A stretch of 64,000 nucleotides of DNA from Haloarcula sp. CBA1129 (lineage in GTDB: Archaea; Halobacteriota; Halobacteria; Halobacteriales; Haloarculaceae): assembly GCF_008729015.1 (NCBI RefSeq), contig NZ_RKSM01000001.1, positions 1,054,001 to 1,118,000 of the forward strand, given 5' to 3'. Below, in pieces: positions 12,246-29,065 of this stretch. The translations under genes and the position numbers were made by a program. Every line of letters starts with the position of its first letter. Position 1 is the first letter of the stretch. A model generated the notes under the pieces. The model was not told the origin of the DNA and did not search any database. It worked only from the letters and a program-made list of their open reading frames with translations.

Positions 12246-13031
12246 CTAAGTGCTGTATTCCCTACAGAACAGATCTTGTAAATCAACGAGGGTCAAGTTG
12301 TGGGTGCTAGTTAGTGTCCGGAGCACCGAAATTCGCTGAGAGAGCTCTGTAGGAGTATGGCTGTCCGACCCCAGTACGAATTGAATACCCTGCTCGGTGA
12401 ACAATTCGAACATTCCTGGATCAGGATGGACGCGGCCAAGAGACCGGTGGACGCGGCCAGCGTTCACCTCCGGAACTGTCCGCGATCGAGCGAGGGCTTG
12501 TGCAACCCGCTCGTAATCTGCTTGTGTCGTGTGTCGTCGGAGTGCGGGAATCCGTTCTGGGAGATCGAGATGCCCCACCACCTCGAAGAGCTCGGAGTCG
12601 ATAAGCGCGACGAGGGCGTCATAGTAGCGTTCGACAGCGGCGCGCCGCTGTGACGTATCCGCGTCTACATACTGTCTCTCACTGGTGTAGGTGTACTGAC
12701 CAGCGAAATGCACGCTCCCGATTGTGTACGCGAACTCCGCCACATCGAGAAACGCCGCGGTCTCTGACTCAGCACCCTCCACGTAGCTCACCTCTGCCGC
12801 GTCATAGAGCCTGAGTTCAGTCGATTCTCTTGCGGTGTCGATGGCTTCCCGGCGCTGCTGGTATGTCTCGACGAGGTCATACTTTGCTCGCCGGCCGAAG
12901 TCATCCTCAGGCACGATGCAATGGTCGGTCAGACCCAGAGCGGACAAGCCCGCAGCCTCGGCGGCTCCAATCATTGCGGTGAGATCCGACCCATCCGAGT
13001 ACGTCGTATGCGTGTGGATGTCCGTCTGCAT
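12246..13031 (-). CDS. PHP-domain phosphoesterase
   Basis: 261 residues. The N-terminal metal-binding motif TDIHTHTTYSDGS, then LGLTDHC, EVSYVEG, VGHLDL and the C-terminal LGSDSHTP give the PHP-fold metal ligands seen in histidinol phosphatase and related enzymes. It should hydrolyse a phosphate monoester with a metal trinuclear centre in the cytoplasm; the substrate is unknown. It is the last gene of the ECF operon; its ATG overlaps the stop of the ComB-like gene (TGATG), so the two are translationally coupled. Confidence 0.85.
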   Translation of the reverse strand: MQTDIHTHTTYSDGSDLTAMIGAAEAAGLSALGLTDHCIVPEDDFGRRAKYDLVETYQQRREAIDTARESTELRLYDAAEVSYVEGAESETAAFLDVAEFAYTIGSVHFAGQYTYTSERQYVDADTSQRRAAVERYYDALVALIDSELFEVVGHLDLPERIPALRRHTTQADYERVAQALARSRTVPEVNAGRVHRSLGRVHPDPGMFELFTEQGIQFVLGSDSHTPTELSQRISVLRTLTSTHNLTLVDLQDLFCREYST

Positions 13032-13777
13032 CACGCGGTGTCCGTTGTACTGACGTCGTAGAGCCGCTGGCCGTCCAACTTCGGCACGACATCCCGGCTG
13101 TCGAAGTTGAGCGTGTACTCGTAGAGATCCCGCCGCTTGATTGGGGGTTTCTGCTCGTACTTCGGCCCCTTCCCGAATTGGACAACCTCCCGGTAGACCT
13201 CGCGTTGCTCCGGCGTCAACGGCTTCCCATGGAGATACCGGGCGATGTACAGCGCACCGACGAGGTCCTCCGGTGAGGGCTTGCCTTTCGATCCCGCAGC
13301 GACGAAATACGTCTCCCGGTCGTCATCCGCGAGATGGTCCGCCACCGCCTTCCCGTTCGTCAACCCGCCGACATAGATATCGACGTCTTCACCACCAGCA
13401 AGACGAAGATCCGTGACCGCGTTCCCACCATTCGTTGATGTCATTGCCGTCGGCCGGCCATCCACATCGACGTCTTGGACGAAACTCGGTGAGTTGAAGA
13501 AATCATAGCCGTCCTCGCCACGGTAGTTTGGACCGGAACTCCCGCCGATTTTTGTATCAGGATTCTCTGCCTTGAATTCCGGTTCGTTCCCGCGCTCCTC
13601 AGTAATGTAGATGTACGCTGCACCGTTCGCGAACAGCTCCGGTACCGTCGTCGAAAACTGGGCGATATCAACAACGACGTAGTTTCCGGGATCAGGGTCC
13701 TTTGGGATTTGTGCACGCCCCGGAATCATCGTCTCTAGAAGCTTTGATTCGAGCGGGTCGTCAGTGACTTGGCTCAT
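13031..13777 (-). CDS. ComB-like phosphatase (2-phosphosulfolactate phosphatase family)
   Basis: 248 residues with the ComB family layout: an N-terminal VVVDIAQFSTTVPELFANGA region, then NSPSFVQ followed by MTSTNGGNAVTDL, and the VGGLTNGKAVADHL and GSKGKPSPEDLVGALYIAR segments. The named family enzyme removes phosphate from phosphosulfolactate in coenzyme M synthesis. Haloarchaea do not make methane, so here the substrate is probably another phosphorylated acid. It lies 106 bp after EcfT and overlaps the PHP gene, suggesting two phosphatases acting after uptake. Family assignment is firm; the substrate is not. Confidence 0.8.
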   Translation of the reverse strand: MSQVTDDPLESKLLETMIPGRAQIPKDPDPGNYVVVDIAQFSTTVPELFANGAAYIYITEERGNEPEFKAENPDTKIGGSSGPNYRGEDGYDFFNSPSFVQDVDVDGRPTAMTSTNGGNAVTDLRLAGGEDVDIYVGGLTNGKAVADHLADDDRETYFVAAGSKGKPSPEDLVGALYIARYLHGKPLTPEQREVYREVVQFGKGPKYEQKPPIKRRDLYEYTLNFDSRDVVPKLDGQRLYDVSTTDTA

Positions 13778-13883
13778 ATTTTAGGCTCAAACTGTCATCC
13801 CAAAAAGACCACTAAGAGACCTATACCCGGGACATGTGTGCTATATACCGTTCAATAGATGTAGTGTAGTGGTGGCTGAGTGG

Positions 13884-14696
13884 TTATGCGAGAGCGGCAA
13901 CGACAGCAACGAGGACGAGCGACCCCGCGAAAAATCCGATATCCAAGGGACGGATTTCCATATCTGCGAGTCGAAGGTCCGTACTCGCATCGTTTTGAAG
14001 GGAGTGCGAGAATCCACGGGCTTCCATGGCTTCGACGGTGACGCGGCTGCGCTTGGCGACGTTGAATATCATTGGGTAGAACGCTCGCATCGAAAGTTTC
14101 AGCAAGTAGGCGTAGTGCCGCCACCGGAACCAGCCGGGGTTGCTGGGGGCGGTGCTGCGCAGTCGAAAAGAGTTAACGAGATCGTGGTATTCCTCAAACA
14201 GCACCGGGAGCATTCGGTATCCGTAGGTGATGAGGAACGTGAACTGGCGCGGAATTCCCAGACTCCGGAGGCCTTGGGAGAGGCTCTTCGGCCCCATACT
14301 TGAGAACACGGCGAGACTCGACACTGAGATAATCGTCAGCTTCAACGTGAACGGAATGAGCGCGCGCACTGCCGCAACTGGATCACCCGTAAAGACAGTG
14401 ACAACAGCGTACGACCCGAGTGTCGTCGCAACAGTAACGGTCATCAAGCCCACCAAAAACAGACTGACACGGGACAACATCGCGAGTGCCGATACGAACA
14501 CGAGCAATCCGAGCAGGACCGTCACATCGTAGAACAACCACGGCACGAAGAGGAAGACAACATACCAGAGAAGCAAAACTCTGGGATCCAACTTGTGCAG
14601 GAACGACCCCTCGTTCTCGTAGGCCGTCCGCAGCAGGTCTGATTTAATCGCCGCAACAGACGTGGCTTCGCGGAGATCGTCGAGCGCTGCCATCAT
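13884..14696 (-). CDS. ECF transporter membrane component EcfT
   Basis: 270 residues (or 269 from the second ATG). Five or six membrane segments lie between about residues 40 and 145 and at the C-terminus. The cytoplasmic helices SMGPKSLSQGLRSLGIPRQF and VEAMEARGFSHS contain the paired coupling motifs of the EcfT family, including the conserved A-R-G. EcfT joins the substrate-binding S component to the ATPases. The ATG overlaps the stop of the ATPase gene. Confidence 0.88.
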   Translation of the reverse strand: MMAALDDLREATSVAAIKSDLLRTAYENEGSFLHKLDPRVLLLWYVVFLFVPWLFYDVTVLLGLLVFVSALAMLSRVSLFLVGLMTVTVATTLGSYAVVTVFTGDPVAAVRALIPFTLKLTIISVSSLAVFSSMGPKSLSQGLRSLGIPRQFTFLITYGYRMLPVLFEEYHDLVNSFRLRSTAPSNPGWFRWRHYAYLLKLSMRAFYPMIFNVAKRSRVTVEAMEARGFSHSLQNDASTDLRLADMEIRPLDIGFFAGSLVLVAVVAALA

Positions 14697-16420
14697 TCGA
14701 TCTCCCCTGTTGTTGCAGACGCGTCATCGTGAAGATAGTCGGCAAATGCCTCGACTGTGAGTGGCGCTTGCTTAAGCCCGAGTTCGGTCCCAAGTCGGAC
14801 GGTCTGAGGCGGGCGGAGGTTCGCTCTCTCCAAGACGTCACAGTCGGCGAACACGTCATTCGGGTGGCCATCAGCGATGATGCTGCCGCTGTCCAGTACA
14901 ACGACGCGAGTCGCCCACGACGCTGCGAGCTCTAAATCGTGGGTTGCAATCACAACCGTTTCGACGCGCTCGCCAGCTCGGTCGATGGTGCGGCCAACCT
15001 CTTCACGGCTCGCCAAATCGAGGCTTCCCGTGGGCTCGTCAAGCAGAACGATTGACGGGTTCGTCGCCAGCCCGATTGCCAGTGATGCCCGGCGTTGCTG
15101 GCCAACGCTCAACAATCGGCCATCACGGTCCTCTAAGGCCTCCAAGTCGAGGAAGTCGATGACGTCATCAACACGCTGCTCGACGTCTGTATAGTCCCTG
15201 TCCTTGAGATAGTGTGCGACATCGGCCCGCACGCTGTCATCGATGAACATCTCTTCGGGGTTTTGTTTGACGTAGACGACTTCGTCGGCCAACTCCTCTG
15301 GGAGGACACGCTCGGTATCCGTGCCGTCAACGGTCACCGTACCGCTGTCTGGCATCTCTAACCCAGTCAGTAACTGCATCAGCGTGGACTTTCCTGCACC
15401 GTTGCTTCCGACAAGTACCACTCGTTCGTCCGGATAGACATCGAGTGAGAGGTCATCAAGGACGTGTTTGGTCCCACTCCGAAGCGTATCGTACGAGTGT
15501 GAGACATCCTCGACAGAGATGACCGGCGTTCCCTCTGGGACCGGCTCCGAATCCCCGTTCAGCCGCCCTCCATCGGGGATGACACGTTCGGCAAACCGAG
15601 TAGCAGCGTCTGAGATTGTCACTGGTAGTTGCTCACTATTGTCGAGGACGCGTTCAGCGATGCGTGTCACCTGCGGCGGGTGGACATCCTGTGCTCTGAG
15701 GTCCGTTAACTGGTTGAGCGCGTCTTCGACGGGACGTTTCCAACTGACAACGCCGTCTTCGACGAGAACCACGCTATCACAGTACTCGGCAATGAACTCC
15801 GTTTGATGCTCGATTGTGACGATAGTCTTGCCGTGGGTCTGGTTGAGCGTAGCGAGTCGCTCGTACGTCTCCCGTGCATTAATCGGGTCAAGTTGTGCAG
15901 CTGGCTCATCAACGACGAGGATATCGGGATCAAGCGACAGTGCAGCCGCAAGCGCAACGAGATGTTTCTGACCACCTGAAAGCTCCCAGACGAACCGGTC
16001 CTCCAATCCGTCCAAGTCGAGTAAATCGAGCGTTCGGTGGACGCGTTCACGGTAGTCCTCATGTCCGTAATTCATCGGTGCGAACGCGACCTCCTCAAAG
16101 ACGGTCGGACTGACGAGTTGGTTGTCGAACTCCTGAAACACGTATCCGACGTGCTGTGAGAGTTCCGCAACGGAACTTGCAGCCACATCGTGGCCTGCGA
16201 CCGAAACATCGCCCTGCATGTCGCCCTCGTAGAAGTGAGGGATGATTCCGTTGAACGACTTGCACAACGTCGTCTTTCCGGACCCGTTCCCGCCGACGAC
16301 AGCGACGAATTCACCGGGCTCGATGGTGAGATTCGCGCCATCTAGGACGTACTCGTCCGTACCGGGATATTTGAACTGCAGTTCGGCAACGGCAATTTGA
16401 GAGTTGTGTATCGCGGTCAT
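14693..16420 (-). CDS. fused double ABC ATPase of an ECF transporter (EcfA-EcfA')
   Basis: 575 residues made of two ABC ATPase domains in tandem. Walker A is GGNGSGKTT near residue 42 in the first and GSNGAGKST near residue 340 in the second. Signature motifs are LSGGQ and LSVGQ, and Walker B segments are ILVVDEPAAQLDP and IVLLDEPTGSLDL. Most ECF systems use two separate ATPases; the fused form replaces both and drives import through EcfT. It overlaps its neighbours by 4 bp on each side. Confidence 0.92.
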   Translation of the reverse strand: MTAIHNSQIAVAELQFKYPGTDEYVLDGANLTIEPGEFVAVVGGNGSGKTTLCKSFNGIIPHFYEGDMQGDVSVAGHDVAASSVAELSQHVGYVFQEFDNQLVSPTVFEEVAFAPMNYGHEDYRERVHRTLDLLDLDGLEDRFVWELSGGQKHLVALAAALSLDPDILVVDEPAAQLDPINARETYERLATLNQTHGKTIVTIEHQTEFIAEYCDSVVLVEDGVVSWKRPVEDALNQLTDLRAQDVHPPQVTRIAERVLDNSEQLPVTISDAATRFAERVIPDGGRLNGDSEPVPEGTPVISVEDVSHSYDTLRSGTKHVLDDLSLDVYPDERVVLVGSNGAGKSTLMQLLTGLEMPDSGTVTVDGTDTERVLPEELADEVVYVKQNPEEMFIDDSVRADVAHYLKDRDYTDVEQRVDDVIDFLDLEALEDRDGRLLSVGQQRRASLAIGLATNPSIVLLDEPTGSLDLASREEVGRTIDRAGERVETVVIATHDLELAASWATRVVVLDSGSIIADGHPNDVFADCDVLERANLRPPQTVRLGTELGLKQAPLTVEAFADYLHDDASATTGEIE

Positions 16421-17274
16421 TGGTCAGCTGTTTGGGTCGCGCGATACCAGATGACCGCTGCGACGACTGCAGAGATCACAATCGGGACTGCGATGTAGTT
16501 CTGGCCGTACATCGCTAGGAATTCAGGCTCCCAGACAACATTGATTGCCCCACCGACTTCGCTGGCTGCTTCAGCTACGAATGCGAGGGGAAACGCGACG
16601 AGCACCGCCAGCAGCGCCTTTCCGGAAAAGCCACGGCGCATTGGTGCGCCACGCTCGCCTTCGAACGGCTCCATGCCGAGCAGCGGCTCGACTTTCCCGT
16701 GGAGTTTCGGGTAGAGGTACAGCGCAGGAACCACGCCGAAGATGATCCCTGTGATCAGCATCTGTGTGATAAAGTCGACACCCTCCAGAACGACGATACT
16801 CTCTGGGAGCCCCGGTACCGCTTCCAATTCTTCGACGCCGACGTAGACTTTCCCGATATCGATGGAGGTGGCGAAGAACTCCTCAAGCGCTTCAGCGATG
16901 AACACGACGATTGCCAACTGCGTGGTGTTCTCGGGATCTTGGAGCAGTTTCGCGGCGAAGTAGTAACAGACTGGAATCAGAATCAGGCCCTCCATCGCTC
17001 CCAGCCCGTCGAATTCGCCGAGAAGAATTTCACCAAAGACGATCTCTCCAACGGGGACAGCGAGTGCAGCCCAGTATGTTCTGAACAGCAAGACGAGAAC
17101 GATTGGGATGAAGATGAATCCGCCGACGCCTAGTTCGAGCGGTCCCACAGTGAACTCGGGGAGGATTTCAGTGAATGCGTTTTGTAACCCGGTGAGGGAC
17201 ATGACGAGAATGAATACCATCATGTCCTGTCTGTCGAACGAGAATCGACTCCCTGTACCAGTTAGCGTACTCAT
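16417..17274 (-). CDS. ECF transporter substrate-binding (S) component, substrate unknown
   Basis: 285 residues with about six to seven hydrophobic segments. The start is MSTLTGTGSRFSFDRQD, and hydrophobic stretches appear at 17-35, 50-70, 75-105, 115-130, 170-195, 220-245 and 260-280. A long acidic periplasm-side loop (DIGKVYVGVEELEAVPG) is notable. Position as first gene before the ATPase and EcfT identifies it as the S component; the sequence matches no vitamin-specific group I can name. An AT-rich TTATAATAATTC box (about 17311-17320) precedes it and may be the operon promoter. Confidence 0.7.
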   Translation of the reverse strand: MSTLTGTGSRFSFDRQDMMVFILVMSLTGLQNAFTEILPEFTVGPLELGVGGFIFIPIVLVLLFRTYWAALAVPVGEIVFGEILLGEFDGLGAMEGLILIPVCYYFAAKLLQDPENTTQLAIVVFIAEALEEFFATSIDIGKVYVGVEELEAVPGLPESIVVLEGVDFITQMLITGIIFGVVPALYLYPKLHGKVEPLLGMEPFEGERGAPMRRGFSGKALLAVLVAFPLAFVAEAASEVGGAINVVWEPEFLAMYGQNYIAVPIVISAVVAAVIWYRATQTADQ

Positions 17275-20173: not shown

Positions 20174-21418
20174 TTATGCTGAAATTTCAGTTGTGTCGGG
20201 ATCGGTTTTGGATATCTGTAGCGCCCACAGACCGGGCTGTTTCTGTTCTGTGGCCACGCGCGGCGGTACCGAAGCGAGGTCTGCAAGAACCTCTGTGACA
20301 TTACCTGGGCGGGTATCGGTCAGGAGATGGAGTGATTCTCCGGGGGCGAGCGCACTAAACTCGGCACAGACCTGTTCGATTCGTGCCCGGTCAGGGACAC
20401 CGCGGAGATCGAGTGCGGTTTCTGGAACGGTGACAGTCGTCCGGTCGGTAAGTGTCGCACGCACTGTTTCACCCAAGTCACGGAAGGCTGCAGGAACCGC
20501 TCCGTCGGTCGAGCGAAGCGATTCGTCGAGAGGGAGCTCCGCCAGCACGTTCGTACTAAGATCAGAATTGTTACCGAACGGTGTGTGTTCGTCGCCACAG
20601 GTCGGGCAAGTGAACCCGGCCATATTGAGGACGGCACCAAGTACTGGAACACCCTCTTCACGGAACAAGGCCATTGAGCGCTCTGTATCGCTGGCAGCGG
20701 TGGGAAACGGCGTCGTCACGAATACTGCTCCGTCAACCGGAAACGACTGCAGCGTCGTCAACACGATGTCGCCGGTCCCCGGCGGCAGGTCAAGCACCAG
20801 CGTATCGACATCCCAGGCGGCGTCGGTCAGCAGTTCCTCGACAGCCTCGTGCGCCATCGCACCGCGCCAAGCCATCGGTTCGTCGTTGGCGATCAGACCG
20901 ACACTGACGACCTGCAGCCCGTCGACCGTGACCGGCTCCGCGCGGCCGTCGTCGGTCGAACCGAGCGGGCCCTCGATATCGAGCAGTTCCGGCGTGTTCG
21001 GGCCGTACACGTCGGCGTCGAACAGGCCGACCCGCTCACCGGATGCAGCCAGTCCACGCGCCAACTGAGTCGCCACAGTGGTCTTGCCGACGCCGCCTTT
21101 CGCGCTGGCGACGGCGATGATGCGGTCCACGCCGGGCACGACGGTACCGTGGTCCGGTTCCGGCGCATCCGCGTCTATATGGACCTGCTCGACGCCGCTA
21201 CACTCTAGCACCGCCGCCCGCATCTGATCGGTAAGTGCGTCCGCTGTCGCAGGGGCCATCTGGGACAGCGTCGGGTCGACCGTGACGGCCCCGTCGGCGA
21301 CGGTCACGGACTCCACCAGCCCCGTAGCGATCACGTCCCTGTCGCCGTCGGGAGCGGACACAGTTCGAAGCGCTTCTCTAACCGCGTCTTCCGTGGGTTC
21401 GGTCACCTCGTCGGACAT
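20174..21418 (-). CDS. Mrp/ApbC-type Fe-S carrier ATPase with N-terminal MIP18-like and C-terminal DUF2249 domains
   Basis: 414 residues. An N-terminal DUF59/MIP18-like domain (about 8-80) is followed by a ParA-type ATPase with the deviant Walker A ASAKGGVGKTT at 103-113 and DLPPGTGDIVLTT. The cluster-binding pair CPTC lies near residue 275. The C-terminal 75 residues (GESLHLLTDTRPGNVTEVLA) match DUF2249. Members carry and insert Fe-S clusters. Here it ends the molybdoenzyme operon, so it may mature the Fe-S-rich alpha and beta subunits. The DUF2249 tail is related to a stand-alone gene at 30046. Confidence 0.85.
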   Translation of the reverse strand: MSDEVTEPTEDAVREALRTVSAPDGDRDVIATGLVESVTVADGAVTVDPTLSQMAPATADALTDQMRAAVLECSGVEQVHIDADAPEPDHGTVVPGVDRIIAVASAKGGVGKTTVATQLARGLAASGERVGLFDADVYGPNTPELLDIEGPLGSTDDGRAEPVTVDGLQVVSVGLIANDEPMAWRGAMAHEAVEELLTDAAWDVDTLVLDLPPGTGDIVLTTLQSFPVDGAVFVTTPFPTAASDTERSMALFREEGVPVLGAVLNMAGFTCPTCGDEHTPFGNNSDLSTNVLAELPLDESLRSTDGAVPAAFRDLGETVRATLTDRTTVTVPETALDLRGVPDRARIEQVCAEFSALAPGESLHLLTDTRPGNVTEVLADLASVPPRVATEQKQPGLWALQISKTDPDTTEISA

Positions 21419-21419
21419 G

Positions 21420-22031
21420 TTACCACGTTTCTCCGTGTTCGGTCTCTGGTTCGGGGCCGTCGTCGTCGTCCATCAGCGTGCCGCCGTACGGGCGATACTC
21501 AACCCCAAACACGCTGTCAATACGCTCTAGCAGGTCTTCCCGCTGGCCGATGAGATCAGTGTCGAACTCGGCAGCCTCTAGCGCCGCGACGAGTCCATCG
21601 TCGTCGAGTCGCCCGTCACCGTACGCGGCGGCGACACCGTCCCGGAACGTATCGGCATTGCGCCGACACCGCAGGCCCTCATCGATGTCCGTTTCTGCAT
21701 CGTTCCGGTCCCCGTCCAGCGGGACGGCCTCGAAGTGCTCGATTGCCCGTCGGTCGAACTCGGCGGCCTTCGAGAGCACCTCGGTCGCCTGCTTGACCGG
21801 ACGCAACTCCGCCCAAGCGTCCCGCGCGGCGGGGGCGACCATTGTGTCGACGACATCATCCCAAGTCGTCGCTCGCTCAGGGTCTTCCAGCGCCTCGGCG
21901 ACAAACGCACCGACGTGGTCCTCCGGAACGGTCATGCCCAGCGACGACTCAGCGCCGCCGCCCTCGTCGCTTTCTGGCTCGTTCTCGTCCTGTGCCGCTG
22001 CCGTGCCGGTCGAGTCGAGTTCGTATGGCAT
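21420..22031 (-). CDS. acidic hypothetical protein of the molybdoenzyme operon
   Basis: 203 residues, no membrane segment. A low-complexity acidic N-terminus is followed by helical sequence (VPEDHVGAFVAEALEDPERA, VKQATEVLSKAAEFDRRAIE) and an acidic, aspartate-rich tail (DDDDGPEPETEHGETW). The helical middle could be a cofactor-free chaperone. Two bases separate it from the HEAT gene and one from Mrp, so all three are translated together. No family is recognised. Confidence 0.65.
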   Translation of the reverse strand: MPYELDSTGTAAAQDENEPESDEGGGAESSLGMTVPEDHVGAFVAEALEDPERATTWDDVVDTMVAPAARDAWAELRPVKQATEVLSKAAEFDRRAIEHFEAVPLDGDRNDAETDIDEGLRCRRNADTFRDGVAAAYGDGRLDDDGLVAALEAAEFDTDLIGQREDLLERIDSVFGVEYRPYGGTLMDDDDGPEPETEHGETW

Positions 22032-22033
22032 CG

Positions 22034-22948
22034 TCAGGTCCTATCCTCCGGGTCGGTGTTCAGGTCGCGTCGGGGGTCGAAACCGGGCGCGCCGCCGGGA
22101 GCCGGTGACTCGCTCCCGGCCCGCGTTGAGCTGAAGGAGCCCGCAGGGTCGTACCCGTCGACGGACTGTTCGGCGGGCGTATCCGGTCCGCTTCCGGGGG
22201 CCGACGGCGGCCCGATTTCGACATCCAAGTTCTCGGGGTCGGTCCCACGAGCACTTGCAAGCGCCTGTTTGGCTGTGCGGGCGACATCCTCGCTCTGGTC
22301 GGTCACGCCGTGAGCTTCGAGCGCCTGCTCCGCTCGGTCGGTCCCGAGCTGACCGAGGCTTTCGGCGGCTTTCGCCCGGGCGAAGGCGTTCGGTTCTCGG
22401 GCCAGCATCGCGGCCAAGATGCGTTCAGCCTCCGAGACGTCCTCGGCGACGCTGCTGAGAAACTGGGCAGCGTACTCCCGGACAGCTGGATGGGGGTCAG
22501 TCTTTATACAGTCGACAAGCAGCGGCTGGTCGGCCTCGCCGCGTTTGCCCAGCGCGATGACGGCGTTCCGTCGGACCCAGCCGCTGTCGTCGTCAAGCGC
22601 CCCCTCCAACTCGGCTGCGTTGCCGCCGACCCGCGAGAGGGCGACGACGGCTTCGGCCCGGACCCACGCCTCGGGGTCGTCGAGCGCTTGCCGGACGACG
22701 GCCGGCGCGGCCCCTGCGACCCCCAGAGCTTCCACAGCGAACTGCCGTACTTCATGATCTTCGTCCTCCACTGCGCGTTCTCCGAGCGCGTCGATAGTCG
22801 AGCGGTCAAGGCCGGAGTCGGCCGCATCGACCAGTGCGATGGCGGCGTCCTGCCGGGTCCGCACCCGCCGAGCGTCCAGTGCATCACGGACCTCTGTCTC
22901 TGTCTCGCCCGGCGTCCGACCGCGCGCGCTCCAGTTCTCGTAGCTCAT
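22034..22948 (-). CDS. HEAT-repeat protein of the molybdoenzyme operon
   Basis: 304 residues. From about residue 20 to 240 it consists of five or six HEAT/PBS-like repeats, visible in units such as VRQFAVEALGVAGAAPAVVR, PEAWVRAEAVVALSRVGG, SGWVRRNAVIALGKRG and HPAVREYAAQFLSSV. The C-terminal 60 residues are disordered and Pro/Gly-rich. HEAT proteins in redox operons are usually protein-protein scaffolds. It overlaps the gamma gene by 4 bp. Confidence 0.8.
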   Translation of the reverse strand: MSYENWSARGRTPGETETEVRDALDARRVRTRQDAAIALVDAADSGLDRSTIDALGERAVEDEDHEVRQFAVEALGVAGAAPAVVRQALDDPEAWVRAEAVVALSRVGGNAAELEGALDDDSGWVRRNAVIALGKRGEADQPLLVDCIKTDPHPAVREYAAQFLSSVAEDVSEAERILAAMLAREPNAFARAKAAESLGQLGTDRAEQALEAHGVTDQSEDVARTAKQALASARGTDPENLDVEIGPPSAPGSGPDTPAEQSVDGYDPAGSFSSTRAGSESPAPGGAPGFDPRRDLNTDPEDRT

Positions 22949-23967
22949 CGCGCCAGCCTCCAGTAGAGGACCGTCCAGCCGGCGACCGTCGCCGCGACGA
23001 GCGTTCCGATTGAGGTGAACAGCGGGTTGCTGCTACCGCCCGAACCACCGTCGCCGCCACTGGAATCGCCCCCGGCGGCGCTACCTGAACTCGAACTGTC
23101 CCCGCTGCCGCCGCTCTCGGGTGCCGTGAGTTCGCCGGATGTAGTGTCCAGTGTGCTGTACTGCATCGTCAGCGACTTCTTGCCGTTGACCTCGTCTGCG
23201 CTCCCGTTCCAGACGGCGAAGGCCAGATACATCGTCTCGTTCTGCGAGAAGGTCGCGTCGTGTTGTCCTTCCCCAGTGTGATCGCGAACGAAGACGACGG
23301 ACCACTCGTCGCCGTTGCGTGTGGCCTGCGCGTCGACGTTCTGCTGTGGCGCATTGCTCAGCGAGCCATACCCCGCCGCGTAGTAGTTCTGGCCGTAGTT
23401 TTCGTACTGGCTCTGTGAGAGGGGGTTGCCAGCGGCCATGCCCGGTTTGGTCTCCCCATCCGGGTGGGGATAGGCGTACATGTCGCCGCTCCACTCGGCC
23501 GGGGTGTCGTTCCCGTACTGCCACTGTGACCGCCAGTACCAGATGTTGACCGGGTCGCCGTCCGCGCCCATCGTTATCGGCGGCTTCTCGCCGCTTTTGA
23601 GCATCACGGCGGCCGCGTCGCTGTAGTTCTCCGGCGACCGGATGTTCGTGTCCTTCGTCGGGTCCTCCCAGGTCAGCCGGAAGGCGACGTGGGTCTCGTT
23701 GGTGAGCGCCTGTACCTCCATCTCGTCGATGCTCCCGCCGCCGTAGGGGACGGCCATCTGCTGTTTCGACAGCGACACAGTCCGGGACGGGGCCTCGGAC
23801 CAGCGGTCGCTCTCGGCGGTCTGTGGGATCTGGTCCGTCGCGACCATGGGTTGCTGGCCGCCGGTGACGGCTGCGGCGACGGCCATCTGGCCGGCGACCA
23901 GCAGCGCCATGACGAGCGCCGTTGCCATCGTTGCCCGGCGGGCCGCCTCGTAGTCCAGTTCAACCAT
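22945..23967 (-). CDS. gamma subunit, EbdC/DdhC-like heme b protein
   Basis: 340 residues. The N-terminus has a hydrophobic export helix after RR (RRATMATALVMALLVAGQM); the C-terminus has a Ser/Gly linker and a terminal helix (LVAATVAGWTVLYWRLAR), so it is held at the outer face. The middle carries the ethylbenzene-dehydrogenase gamma pattern (EMEVQALTNETHVAFRLTWE, MYLAFAVWNG), which binds one heme b in type II DMSO-reductase-family enzymes and passes electrons to or from the beta subunit. It overlaps the chaperone gene by 8 bp. Confidence 0.82.
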   Translation of the reverse strand: MVELDYEAARRATMATALVMALLVAGQMAVAAAVTGGQQPMVATDQIPQTAESDRWSEAPSRTVSLSKQQMAVPYGGGSIDEMEVQALTNETHVAFRLTWEDPTKDTNIRSPENYSDAAAVMLKSGEKPPITMGADGDPVNIWYWRSQWQYGNDTPAEWSGDMYAYPHPDGETKPGMAAGNPLSQSQYENYGQNYYAAGYGSLSNAPQQNVDAQATRNGDEWSVVFVRDHTGEGQHDATFSQNETMYLAFAVWNGSADEVNGKKSLTMQYSTLDTTSGELTAPESGGSGDSSSSGSAAGGDSSGGDGGSGGSSNPLFTSIGTLVAATVAGWTVLYWRLAR

Positions 23968-24679
23968 CGGCTCTCACCCCCGTTCCGGGCGACACCGGAT
24001 CGGGATGGCTCGCTTCGTCGAACTCGACGAGGGCCGCCGCCAAGTCCGCGGCGGCGGCGTAGACGGCGCACGTTTCGGGCACGTCACGGTCGGACGTGCC
24101 ACCACCGTCGACGGTTTTCCGGACCCGATGAGCGAACGCGGGAACGAAGTCGCCGAGATGCTCGTCCAGTACGGTCGCGCCCGCTCGTGCGAGGCGAACA
24201 GCCGTTTCGTCGTCGCCGTCGTCGAGGGCGACCGCCCGCTGTGCGGCAAGCACCTGCAGCAGTTCCAGTTCGACGGTGACGTGGTCGTGGCGCTCGTCGA
24301 AATCATCGCTGATTTCGAGGCCGAACTCCTCTAACAGGCCGACGACCGTGGCGATACGGCGCTGGCTCTCGTTGACCTCCTCGCCGGTGGTGTAGTGGGC
24401 CTCGTATGGGACGACCGGATACGTCCCTTCGTCGCTCGGGAGGCCGAACAGACGGTTGTACGCCGGTTCGAGTGAGTCGCGGTCGACGCCGTCGAGCGCA
24501 TCAAGCAGTGCGTCGACTTCGGTTTCGAGGTCCAGCGCAGCACCGGCCTGCCGGACGGCATCCTGGACCGCTTCGTCCTGCAGGTCGCCGACGACGGCTT
24601 CGTCGGGGTACTGGAAGACCGTCGCGGCGAACCCGTACAGCGCGGCGCGTCGCGTGTGGTGTTGTGGCGTGTTCTTCAT
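23960..24679 (-). CDS. TorD/NarJ-type chaperone for the molybdoenzyme
   Basis: 239 residues of helical, acidic sequence. RRAALYGFAATVFQYPDEAV begins the TorD-like fold, and the family turn YEAHYTTGEEVNESQRRIA lies near residue 105. It would bind the alpha-subunit Tat leader and hold the enzyme until the cofactor is loaded. The ATG at 24679 is preferred; an upstream start at 24751 would add 24 residues within the beta gene. It sits between beta and gamma, as in other type II operons. Confidence 0.82.
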   Translation of the reverse strand: MKNTPQHHTRRAALYGFAATVFQYPDEAVVGDLQDEAVQDAVRQAGAALDLETEVDALLDALDGVDRDSLEPAYNRLFGLPSDEGTYPVVPYEAHYTTGEEVNESQRRIATVVGLLEEFGLEISDDFDERHDHVTVELELLQVLAAQRAVALDDGDDETAVRLARAGATVLDEHLGDFVPAFAHRVRKTVDGGGTSDRDVPETCAVYAAAADLAAALVEFDEASHPDPVSPGTGVRADG

Positions 24680-24689
24680 TGTACGCACC

Positions 24690-25871
24690 TCACGGCTGGT
24701 TGGTCCACTGTTCACCCTCGCGGACCTCCATGGGCTCCTCGATTGGCACATCGACGACCTTCTCGCCGTTGCGGTCCCAGCCCTTCACGCGGTTCTCCTT
24801 GACGTTGTAGGTCTCGATGAGCCGCGTCGTCGCCCCGAACAACTGGAGAATCCCGAGCACCTCGTGGCTGGGGTTGCGGGCCCGCTCCTGCACGATACGG
24901 ACCGACTCCTCGTAGGTGTCGCCCGGCCACTCGTTTTCCTTGACCTCGGTGTTCGGGGTGAACATCTGGGTCAGGAACTCCGGCGGGACGTGGTACGGCG
25001 GCATGTAGAACACCTGCGGCTGGGTCCCGAACTGCGGGTACAGCGGCAGGGCCACCTTCTCGTCGGAGTGGACGAGGTAGTTGATAGGCGAGCGCCCCGA
25101 CGCGGCTGAGGACTTGCCCCCCGCCGGCCCGGCGTCAGGTCCGCGGTTGATGTTGCCGTGGAGCCGCGTCTTCCCGATACAGGAGGAGACACACCGCGGG
25201 ACGTTCCCCTCCTCGATGCGGGGGTAGCAGCCGACCGGTTTCTCGGTGACGCCAGTCTCAGGGTTGTACATCGGCTTGTGGTACGGACAGGCTTTCACAC
25301 AGCGGCGGTAGCCCCGGCAGCGTTCCTGGTCGAGCAGGACGATGCCGTCTTCCTCGCGCTTGTAGATGGCTTTCCGCGGGCACGCAGCGAGACAGGCGGG
25401 GTTCTTGCAGTGGTTACAGAGCCGCGGGAGGTAGAACTGCCAGATGTCGTGGTACTCGTCGTTTTCGAGGTCGGACTCGACGACCTCGCCTTCGGGGTAC
25501 TCCCCGTGGACCTGATCGTCGCCCAGCGCGGGGTACTCCCAAGCCTGCTTCTCGGCGATGTACCCGCGGACCTGCTCGCCGTTTTCCGCGGCGTCGAAGA
25601 TGGTCTGATCGGCCTCCAGATCATCGAGCAGCCGCATGTCCCAGCCCATCGGGTAGCCGCCGTAGGGCTCGGTCTCGACGTTCATCCACCACATATACTC
25701 CTCGCCCTCGCCGCTGGTCCAGGTCGACTTACAGGCAAAGGAGCAGGTGTTACAGTTGATACACCGGTTCGTGTTGATGACCATCCCCCAGTGGTAGTCC
25801 CGCTCTTCCTCGCGGTGTTCGTAGGGATAGCTGTGCTCGCGGCCGAGTTGTGGGTTGTACGTTTGTGCCAT
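24690..25871 (-). CDS. beta subunit, four-cluster Fe-S electron-transfer protein
   Basis: 393 residues. Four cysteine groups bind the Fe-S clusters: CINCNTCSFAC (37-47), CNHCKNPACLAACP, CRGYRRCVKACPYHKP and CYPRIEEGNVPRCVSSC. The family layout is that of NarH, DdhB and EbdB. It passes electrons between the molybdenum centre and the heme subunit. It has no leader of its own, so it is expected to travel through Tat attached to alpha. Its ATG overlaps the alpha stop (TGATG). Confidence 0.92.
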   Translation of the reverse strand: MAQTYNPQLGREHSYPYEHREEERDYHWGMVINTNRCINCNTCSFACKSTWTSGEGEEYMWWMNVETEPYGGYPMGWDMRLLDDLEADQTIFDAAENGEQVRGYIAEKQAWEYPALGDDQVHGEYPEGEVVESDLENDEYHDIWQFYLPRLCNHCKNPACLAACPRKAIYKREEDGIVLLDQERCRGYRRCVKACPYHKPMYNPETGVTEKPVGCYPRIEEGNVPRCVSSCIGKTRLHGNINRGPDAGPAGGKSSAASGRSPINYLVHSDEKVALPLYPQFGTQPQVFYMPPYHVPPEFLTQMFTPNTEVKENEWPGDTYEESVRIVQERARNPSHEVLGILQLFGATTRLIETYNVKENRVKGWDRNGEKVVDVPIEEPMEVREGEQWTNQP

Positions 25872-28800
25872 CAGTCATCGCCTCCTGAGGTCGATGTTCC
25901 GGTACTGCCAGAGCTGCTACCGCTTGGCTGCAGCGACCCGCCGATGTAGTCCTCAACGAGGTCGTCCCGGCGGGCGTCGCCGGGCCACCAGTCCGCTTCC
26001 TCGTACTTCTCGACGTCCACGAGGTCGTCCCGGTTGGTCCCCGTCGGGGCCCACACCGTCTCCTCGTAGCCGTGTTCCAGTTCCGCGCCGTGCCAGGCGA
26101 TGTCCTCGTCGACGATATCGGAGATGTTCGGATCGCCGAACACCGCCTTGTGGACGAGGTCGTCGGTCTCCTGCAACGGGTCGAGCCAGATGTTCGTGAT
26201 CGTGTTGTACCCCTTGACGCCGTCCTCGTCGGCCTCGTCGTCGGGGAAGTGCTGGGGCCACCAGCCGTGCCACAGCGTCAACTGTCCCATGTCACCGGCC
26301 GACCGCGGGCGCTGGCGCTCGCTGACCATCGCCCTGACGACGAGGTCACCGCGCTTGCCGGTGATGCGGACGTAGTCCCCGTTTTCGACGTCGATGTTCT
26401 CAGCATCGCTGGGGTGCATCTCGACGAAGGCCTCACCGAGCGGCGCGACGTCTTCGGACTCGCCGTCGCCGGTCGGGAACGAGAAGTCGTCGACGAGGCG
26501 GTCGGTCCCCTCCGGGTCGCCGCTGACGCTGCCGAAGTCACGCGAGGCCCAGATGAGGTTCCAGTCGGTCATCCCCCACGAGGAGTGGGTCCGGTACTTC
26601 GGGTGTGGGGTGTTGTAGTAGAACTGATTGCCCTCGTCGTGATAGAGGGGGTTCTCCTCGTCTTTTGCCTCGTCCCACTTCTTGTTCACGCCGTAGGGGG
26701 TCCCCTCGACGCTCTCGACGTGGTCGATGTCGTCCCGGTCGAGTTCGATGAAGCGGTCCTCTTCCTTGTGGAACTCCATCCGGCCGGTCTTCGTGTAGAA
26801 CGGCCGGTCCTCGTGGACCTGCGAGTAGAACGGGACTCGGGGGTAGGTCTTCAAATCCAGCCGTTCCGGCCCGTCTTCCAGGTCCTCGACGTCGATGCTC
26901 TGGGTCGTCATCCCGCGGTCGAACGTCTCCTGGATGTACTCGGTGACGTCGCCGTCGTCGTCGAGGAACTTATCGAAGTACGCCCGGTAGGAGTCGACGT
27001 TGCGCTCCTCGGGCGGGATTTTCTCGTCGAGTTTCTCCGCGACCATCGCGACGGCTTCCCCGTCCTGTTTGGTGTCGTACATGGGGTCCATCACGCCGCT
27101 ATCCATCTGGACGAAGGGGTTCTCCGGTCCGACGGTGATGTCGGGGTACTCACACTCCAGCCAAGACGGCACCGGGAGCACGATGTCGGCGTGTCGCGCC
27201 GAGTAGGTCATGTGCATGTCCGAGACGATGAACAGGTCGTTCTCCGTGTCGGGGTGTTTGACGAAGTTCTCGATGACGTGCTCCTGATGTTTGGTCTGGT
27301 TTAGGAGGTTGCAGTTCATCGTCCACAGAATCGACGGCTTGGACATCGTGTACGAGCCGGCGTTTTTCGGCATCACCGGCTCCTCGGCGTCGCCCTGCGG
27401 AACGAGGTCCAGTTCGCGGTCGAAGTCCCCACGAACCTCGTGGGGGTCGAGTTTCTCGCCGCCGAAGAAAGCGAAGGCGTAGCCCGGATACATCCCGTGG
27501 GCGGCGTTGCCGTCCGGGTTGACGTAGTGGGGGTAGCCGTCCAGCAGTTCGATCTTGTACTGGCCGGAGTAGTTGTAGTACCCCTGGCCGGCATCGCCGA
27601 TGTTGCCCAGCATCGCTTGGACGAGGAACACGGCCCGCTGGAGCGCGTCGTTGGAGTGGAACCAGTGGTTGATGCCTTCGCCGGTGAACCACTGCCCCTT
27701 CTCGGCGTCGGCGAACTCCCGCGCCGTCTGAGCCAGTTTGTCGGCCGGAATCGTGGTGATGTCCTCGACCGTCTCTGGGTCGTAGTTTTCGATGATGTTG
27801 TCCCGCTGACGGGCGAAGTCGCTCTGGACGGTGACTGTCGAACCGTCGGTCAGTTCGATATCGGTGTCGACGTCTAACTGTGGCGTGGCCGGCATCTCCT
27901 CGCCGACCTCCTCGCGTGTCATCGGCACGGGCTGGCTGTCCTCGTCCAGCACGACGAAATCCCCCCAGTCGTTGTGCTCATGCTGGTCTTCAAGGTCCTC
28001 TGGGGGTTCATCGTGGTCCTCGAACACCTCGTGTGCACGGAGGTACTTGCCGGTGTCCTCCCGAATCAACAGCGGGAGGCTCGTGAACTTCCGCATGAAC
28101 TCAGGGTCGTACAGGTCCTCGTTGATGATGACGTGCGCGATGCCGAGTGCGAACGCCGGGTCGCTGCCTGGCCGAACCGGGAGCCACCGGTCGCACTTCT
28201 GGACCGTCGGCGAGTAGTCCGGATAGACGCCGACCATCTTCCCGCCGCGCTCGCGGGTCTCCTGCAGAAAGTGGTTGTCCGCGAGTTTGTTGTGGATGAG
28301 GTTCTTCCCTTGGATGATGGTGTAATCGGCTTTCCGCCAGGCGGCGGCGTCGGCGTCGGAGGTCTGATACCCCGTCGTGATGACGTGGCCCGGCGGCAGG
28401 TCGGCGTACCAGTCGTACTCGGTCCACTCACAGCCGCCGAAAACAGAGGCGAGTCGACGGCCCGACCCGTGGCGAGTGAACAGCCCGTCGGCCTTGATGG
28501 CGTTGAAGATATGGAACTGCTTATTGTCCTCCAAGTTGGCCATCTTCTCGGCGATGAGGTCGATCGCCTCGTCCCAAGAGACGCGTTCGAACTCGTCTTC
28601 GCCGCGACCCTCCGGATTAGGGTCATCGGGATCCCACCCCTTCCGGACCATCGGGTACTTGATGCGGGACGGCTCAAAGGTACGGCGATGGAGTGACAAC
28701 CCCTTCATACAGCCCCGCGGGTTCCAGTGCTGGCTCACGCCGGCGTCCTCGTAGCCCGACGGACCGACCGAGGGCTCCTCGTTGTGGTACACCTGCTCTG

Positions 28801-29065
28801 CTCGTATCGGGACGCCGTTTTTCATGTAGAAGTTCAGTGCACACGACTGGGTACAGTTGGGGTGACACACCGTCCAGTCCACCCCGTCGTACGCGTAGAT
28901 GTCGTGATACACTTGCTCCCAGTCCCGATTGGGGTAGGATTTGAGCGGGTTGTCCACGCTCGTTATCGGTTCCGTTGACTGTGTCGCGCCCCATGCACCT
29001 TCGACGAGCGCGCCAACCGCTCCCGCGCCCGCCGCAGTCAGGAAATCACGCCTCGATAGTTTCAT
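25871..29065 (-). CDS. catalytic alpha subunit, type II DMSO-reductase-family molybdoenzyme
   Basis: 1064 residues. The Tat leader LSRRDFLTAAGAGAVGALV sends it to the outside. The Fe-S motif is C67-x3-C71-x3-C75 with C119 later; NarG has His at the first position. The stretch YDWYADLPPG near residue 220 is the type II segment carrying the molybdenum-ligand aspartate. The ending has a Ser/Thr/Gly-rich tail. Substrates of this subfamily include nitrate, chlorate, selenate, dimethyl sulfide and hydrocarbons, and no motif decides between them. The gene leads an operon of seven overlapping or near-contiguous genes, alpha to Mrp. Confidence 0.9.
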   Translation of the reverse strand: MKLSRRDFLTAAGAGAVGALVEGAWGATQSTEPITSVDNPLKSYPNRDWEQVYHDIYAYDGVDWTVCHPNCTQSCALNFYMKNGVPIRAEQVYHNEEPSVGPSGYEDAGVSQHWNPRGCMKGLSLHRRTFEPSRIKYPMVRKGWDPDDPNPEGRGEDEFERVSWDEAIDLIAEKMANLEDNKQFHIFNAIKADGLFTRHGSGRRLASVFGGCEWTEYDWYADLPPGHVITTGYQTSDADAAAWRKADYTIIQGKNLIHNKLADNHFLQETRERGGKMVGVYPDYSPTVQKCDRWLPVRPGSDPAFALGIAHVIINEDLYDPEFMRKFTSLPLLIREDTGKYLRAHEVFEDHDEPPEDLEDQHEHNDWGDFVVLDEDSQPVPMTREEVGEEMPATPQLDVDTDIELTDGSTVTVQSDFARQRDNIIENYDPETVEDITTIPADKLAQTAREFADAEKGQWFTGEGINHWFHSNDALQRAVFLVQAMLGNIGDAGQGYYNYSGQYKIELLDGYPHYVNPDGNAAHGMYPGYAFAFFGGEKLDPHEVRGDFDRELDLVPQGDAEEPVMPKNAGSYTMSKPSILWTMNCNLLNQTKHQEHVIENFVKHPDTENDLFIVSDMHMTYSARHADIVLPVPSWLECEYPDITVGPENPFVQMDSGVMDPMYDTKQDGEAVAMVAEKLDEKIPPEERNVDSYRAYFDKFLDDDGDVTEYIQETFDRGMTTQSIDVEDLEDGPERLDLKTYPRVPFYSQVHEDRPFYTKTGRMEFHKEEDRFIELDRDDIDHVESVEGTPYGVNKKWDEAKDEENPLYHDEGNQFYYNTPHPKYRTHSSWGMTDWNLIWASRDFGSVSGDPEGTDRLVDDFSFPTGDGESEDVAPLGEAFVEMHPSDAENIDVENGDYVRITGKRGDLVVRAMVSERQRPRSAGDMGQLTLWHGWWPQHFPDDEADEDGVKGYNTITNIWLDPLQETDDLVHKAVFGDPNISDIVDEDIAWHGAELEHGYEETVWAPTGTNRDDLVDVEKYEEADWWPGDARRDDLVEDYIGGSLQPSGSSSGSTGTSTSGGDD

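Follow-up and report, generated by a model that had tools for sequence, protein, structure and literature searches.

An ECF importer with phosphatase-family partners in Haloarcula and its relatives in archaea and bacteria

The ECF transporter locus

ECF transporters are known importers of vitamins and metals. In the window, i.e. the whole stretch of 64,000 nucleotides that was analysed, five genes on the minus strand encode an S component, a fused double ATPase, an EcfT, a ComB-like protein and a PHP-family protein (Table 1). Overlaps of a few bases were observed between the S and ATPase genes, between the ATPase and EcfT genes and between the ComB-like and PHP genes; the PHP gene starts at GTG 13034 or, likelier, at ATG 13031. 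The initial annotation had described one mostly overlapping five-gene unit, and the genes and the three overlaps agreed with this description, but the ComB-like/PHP pair starts 106 bp past EcfT. The gap showed no Rfam match and no clear terminator-like site on the minus strand. Because of this gap, and since in other genomes the ComB-like gene precedes S or is oriented the opposite way, the five genes probably form two transcription units.

Table 1. Genes and intergenic gap of the importer locus (positions within the window)
Feature	Position	Strand	Basis
S component, 285 aa, ECF S fold	16417..17274	-	ORF; AF2 model fold
Fused EcfA-EcfA' double ATPase, 575 aa	14693..16420	-	TIGR04520, ABC_tran
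EcfT transmembrane coupling protein	13884..14696	-	PF02361 E 1e-13
106-bp intergenic gap, EcfT/ComB-like	13778..13883	-	sequence
Divergent ComB-like protein	13031..13777	-	PF04029 E 1e-21
PHP-family metallo-phosphoesterase, HisJ-like	12246..13034	-	PF02811 E 8e-16

The double ATPase contained two ABC_tran stretches (E 3e-60) and scored 372 bits against TIGR04520 (cut-off 315); two ECF-type ATPases and an EcfT are thus encoded together with S in a run of overlapping genes. Similar genes were found in Haloarcula mannanilytica, with identities of 93% for S, 95% for the ATPase and 96% for both EcfT and the ComB-like protein, by which the window was assigned to the genus Haloarcula. Two further EcfT genes in the window's genome adjoin, as read from the sequence, CbiM-like genes in one case and BioY-like genes in the other, so that uptake of cobalt/nickel and of biotin looks to be supplied separately. 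An apparent molybdopterin oxidoreductase operon was also read by eye on the minus strand of the window (20174-29065), comprising large, iron-sulfur and membrane subunits, a chaperone and an Mrp-like ATPase.

No match to an S-component family of Pfam or NCBIfam was obtained up to an E-value of 5 with 23 members of the S family. The AF2 model of the window protein (mean pLDDT 80) showed the six-TM S fold with two additional C-terminal TM helices. Its best 18 structural matches were all S components, with Z-scores of 8.8-13.9, the first unrelated row having a Z-score of 7.5; Foldseek E-values were weak, with ThiT on top (E 0.067). The predicted fold supports an assignment as ECF S component, which had previously been a guess. 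On the side predicted to face outwards, judging by the established topology of S components, the conserved charged residues were eight acidic ones (E36, E82, E95, D139, E149, E151, E158 and E164) and a single basic one (K142). According to the model, such a face is a better match for a ligand that is cationic, zwitterionic or polyhydroxylated than for a bare anion, and would not suit a bare phosphate dianion.

The importer shares the S fold, the double ATPase, EcfT and the overlapping S-A-T order with ECF transporters that have dedicated A-A'-T modules (vitamin importers; HmpT, ThiT, FolT, RibU and BioY structures). It differs from these in its two extra C-terminal helices, its position outside the Pfam and NCBIfam families, its phosphatase-family partners and the lack of an Rfam riboswitch, which was found neither in the window nor ahead of the Niallia copy. 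The whole window showed no Rfam match at the gathering threshold, and only sub-threshold snoRNA-like matches were observed upstream of S; a look for riboswitches near S homologues had been proposed in the initial annotation. Among six related loci, the only Rfam family hits were two guanidine-I riboswitches in Niallia, located at other genes on the minus strand (L126:17054-17153 and 24123-24228).

The S gene was present in 34 of 292 Halobacteria genomes, in 17 of 77 genera, with a patchy distribution and several copies on plasmids. A profile search of the phylum yielded no distant relatives of S in the 393 genomes that lie outside Halobacteria, nor did a search of viral contigs. A plasmid search, however, revealed S homologues in Streptomyces cavourensis and Niallia taxi, 44% identical to the window protein, accompanied by fused ATPases (46-49% identity) and EcfTs (38-39% identity). 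The S-A-T order was retained in all 36 further haloarchaeal loci and in the two bacteria, which argues that this arrangement is not due to chance. Conservation of the order of all five genes was thus confirmed for S-A-T, but not for the position of the ComB-like gene or the nature of the second enzyme, both of which vary.

Phosphatase-family partners of the importer

The ComB-like protein scored 77.7 bits against PF04029 (cut-off 26.4), and ComB proteins of the ECF type match only part of the 226-position model, approximately residues 13-163. Residues were aligned with those of 1VR0, 2Z0J and haloarchaeal ComA-linked ComB, all of which have the canonical Arg and Glu. The window protein keeps D37, N95-S96-P97 and T115-N116-G117, but has Q40 in place of the Arg of the DxxRA[ST] motif and S80 in place of the Glu of the GGE motif; the ECF-linked relatives that were read carry Gln or His and Ser or Gly, respectively, at these positions. 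The ComB equivalog cut-offs of TIGR00298 (45.7 vs 175 bits) and PRK00886 (47 vs 235 bits) were missed. Compared with the 2-phosphosulfolactate phosphatase ComB (PF04029; 1VR0, 2Z0J), the D, NSP and TNG motifs are common to both, while the window protein covers the model only in part, has both Arg and Glu replaced and is linked to an ECF importer instead of to ComA. ComA was found neither in the window's genome nor in 32 of the 34 S-bearing genomes.

The coenzyme M pathway had been taken to be absent from haloarchaea, which is too strong a statement. ComA and ComB are adjacent in G225 and G255, two haloarchaea that lack this S component, indicating from their gene content that the initial steps of the pathway are not wholly missing from the class. 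In these loci (L113:7623-9536 and L110:7566-9693) ComA, a small VOC-like gene and a canonical ComB adjoin each other, and ComA in L113 matched PF02679 with an E-value of 2e-83; sulfolactate or coenzyme M-type synthesis is possible in these organisms. The annotation '2-phosphosulfolactate phosphatase' in haloarchaea should not be taken to denote a coenzyme M gene.

PF04029 genes were also observed in other surroundings. In four loci of one genus (L101, L102, L104 and L105) a stand-alone ComB-like gene adjoins pst/phoU-type genes, in two of them (L101 and L104) together with an inositol-monophosphatase gene. Another PF04029 subfamily adjoins a phosphotransferase-like gene in L111, L112, L114, L115, L116 and L127, most of which have an acyl-CoA dehydrogenase gene nearby. 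In L106:4482-11689, ComB-like and PHP genes occur without this importer in a cluster of sugar-acid type, with aldehyde dehydrogenase-like, HpcH/HpaI aldolase, Gfo/Idh/MocA and mandelate racemase family genes.

A PF04029 gene was present in 32 of 34 S-bearing and in 22 of 258 S-less genomes (Fisher p 7e-26, ignoring phylogeny), and within the Haloarcula sample in all nine S-bearing genomes and in none of the six S-negative ones. In all 31 genomes with both genes on one contig, the PF04029 gene lay at most 6.3 kb from S: on the same strand downstream in 18 and upstream in six, and on the opposite strand downstream in five and upstream in two. As such counts ignore phylogeny, better evidence is provided by the varied arrangements and by the trees of S and ComB, which were strongly discordant; for example, the ComB proteins of L013, L058 and L062 grouped in a single clade (100/99), whereas the corresponding S proteins fell into separate clades. 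The four arrangements and the discordant trees indicate that S and the ComB-like gene have been re-linked repeatedly, which argues that they share a function.

The PHP protein carries a PHP domain with metal-binding motifs. Its nearest solved chain was 2YXO (E 1e-16), to which the D/H/E metal motifs align, and D5-x-H7-x-H9, E81 and D224-x-H226 were invariant in seven PHP proteins. The similarity to HisJ/PHP histidinol-phosphate phosphatases such as 2YXO is full-length and the metal motifs are common to both, but the cut-off of the HisJ family TIGR01856 was missed (82.0 vs 90.2 bits) and the window protein is linked to the ECF and ComB-like genes, not to his genes. Across 36 loci, the second enzyme was a PHP protein in 20 and a PF01261 TIM barrel in 11; the two were never found together in one locus (p 7e-6, ignoring phylogeny). 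The TIM barrel retains the nine trinuclear metal ligands of Escherichia coli endonuclease IV, the first His being three columns off in the alignment yet present in all rows. Compared with endonuclease IV and other PF01261 proteins (Nfo; MJ1311, 3WQO), it has the same nine ligands as Nfo but is short and divergent. In two loci (L016 and L060) no second enzyme was recognised next to the ComB-like gene, and the contig of L008 stops after EcfT. In single lineages, a creatininase-family gene adjoins the TIM barrel (L013:7493-8311) and an aldehyde ferredoxin oxidoreductase gene lies immediately 3' of EcfT (L058:13014-14699).

In the two S-bearing genomes without PF04029 (G241 and G268), inositol-monophosphatase genes adjoin S-A-T, and the same arrangement was observed in Natrialba aegyptia (L015). 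Between G241 and G268, the adjacent inositol-monophosphatase and an uncharacterised protein are about 62% identical, the S proteins being more divergent. A PHP identity was considered for the uncharacterised protein but found no support, with no Pfam match and a profile comparison probability of 9.7. The gene order in Streptomyces is LacI-type regulator, tandem HAD, S-A-T, and that in Niallia is divergent RpiR-type regulator, S-A-T, PHP. Regulators of the LacI and RpiR types usually have sugars and sugar phosphates as ligands. Phosphatase-family neighbours thus recurred in nearly every copy examined, in line with the link between importer and phosphatases drawn in the initial annotation; a loss of the phosphatases from most copies was not seen, other families having taken their place.

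Candidate substrates of the importer

The gene neighbourhoods lend good support to a coupling of importer and phosphatases. The explanation that we tentatively favour starts from a dedicated ECF importer, in which one S component has its own A and T proteins. It would import a scarce small molecule, most likely a phosphoester whose organic part is sugar-like or zwitterionic, and a cytosolic module of two enzymes would then strip the phosphate: the divergent ComB-like protein and a metallo-phosphoesterase, which would be the PHP protein in the window and the endonuclease IV-like TIM barrel in other loci. The phosphatase families that recur beside S suggest that the imported compound is dephosphorylated. 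The partner proteins would act as phosphatases, and on this compound, which would already be phosphorylated at import; a sugar-like nature is suggested by the LacI- and RpiR-type regulators beside the bacterial copies. However, members of PF04029 and PHP need not be phosphatases, the two canonical residues replaced in ECF-type ComB and the loci L016 and L060 speak against this explanation, and neighbourhood alone does not prove a common substrate for enzyme and importer. Our confidence is held below an even chance because the acidic face of S counts against a phosphorylated compound.

The same acidic face, with its single basic residue, favours import of a vitamin-like compound that is cationic or polyhydroxylated and carries no phosphate, the phosphatase-family enzymes acting later on the product of a housekeeping kinase or detoxifying a by-product. 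Solved S components of the same fold also serve vitamins (thiamin, folate, riboflavin and biotin). We regard this explanation as rather unlikely, though still to be reckoned with: no kinase gene was seen in the neighbourhoods read by eye, and the chemistry that recurs beside S is phosphoester hydrolysis. Import of an organophosphate chiefly as a source of phosphorus is improbable. The stand-alone ComB-like genes beside pst/phoU-type genes, with an inositol-monophosphatase gene in two of four genomes, would agree with such scavenging, but they belong to one genus only and lack this importer, and the bacterial copies adjoin LacI- and RpiR-type regulators.

An uptake of sulfonates such as sulfolactate or phosphosulfolactate, which would give the ComB-like protein the role that ComB has in coenzyme M synthesis, had been hinted at in the initial annotation. 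Although membership in PF04029 exceeds the curated cut-off, the partial coverage of the model, the substitution of Gln or His for Arg and of Ser or Gly for Glu, the missing ComA in 32 of 34 S-bearing genomes and the acidic face of S make this very unlikely. Even less can be said for a cofactor of the 2-oxoacid dehydrogenases, e.g. lipoate. In six loci (L009, L010, L011, L051, L065 and L066), from two lineages with differing internal arrangement, the ECF unit does have lipA on one side and the PDH operon on the other, so that some copies have a cofactor gene nearby. But the S-negative Haloarcula genomes G051 and G083 have lipA directly next to pdh, the window's own genome, which has lipA, shows the same adjacency at 2.72 Mb, and most S copies have no lipA nearby. 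As this adjacency also occurs without S, it represents ancestral synteny, and the position between lipA and pdh an insertion site and not a pathway link. That importer and hydrolases are unrelated chance neighbours on a mobile island would agree with the patchy distribution and the plasmid copies, but is scarcely credible given the linkage in 31 of 31 assessable genomes, the four arrangements, the discordant S and ComB trees and the occurrence, in two bacterial phyla, of homologous S-A-T genes with phosphatase-family neighbours.

In its widest form, the proposal would be an undescribed ECF importer family of archaea and bacteria for a phosphorylated (sugar-like) metabolite, whose members always come with a phosphatase, the phosphatases being interchangeable and drawn from at least five unrelated families; in this form it is doubtful. 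No description of this importer-phosphatase system was found in the literature searched, which lay mostly outside subscription papers. The S family is unclassified and recurs in three phyla with phosphatase-family partners of differing ancestry. This recurring pairing hints at a nutrient that has so far gone unrecognised or at ECF substrates of a new class, and it sets a testable constraint, since one ligand has to fit both the S component and several unrelated enzymes.
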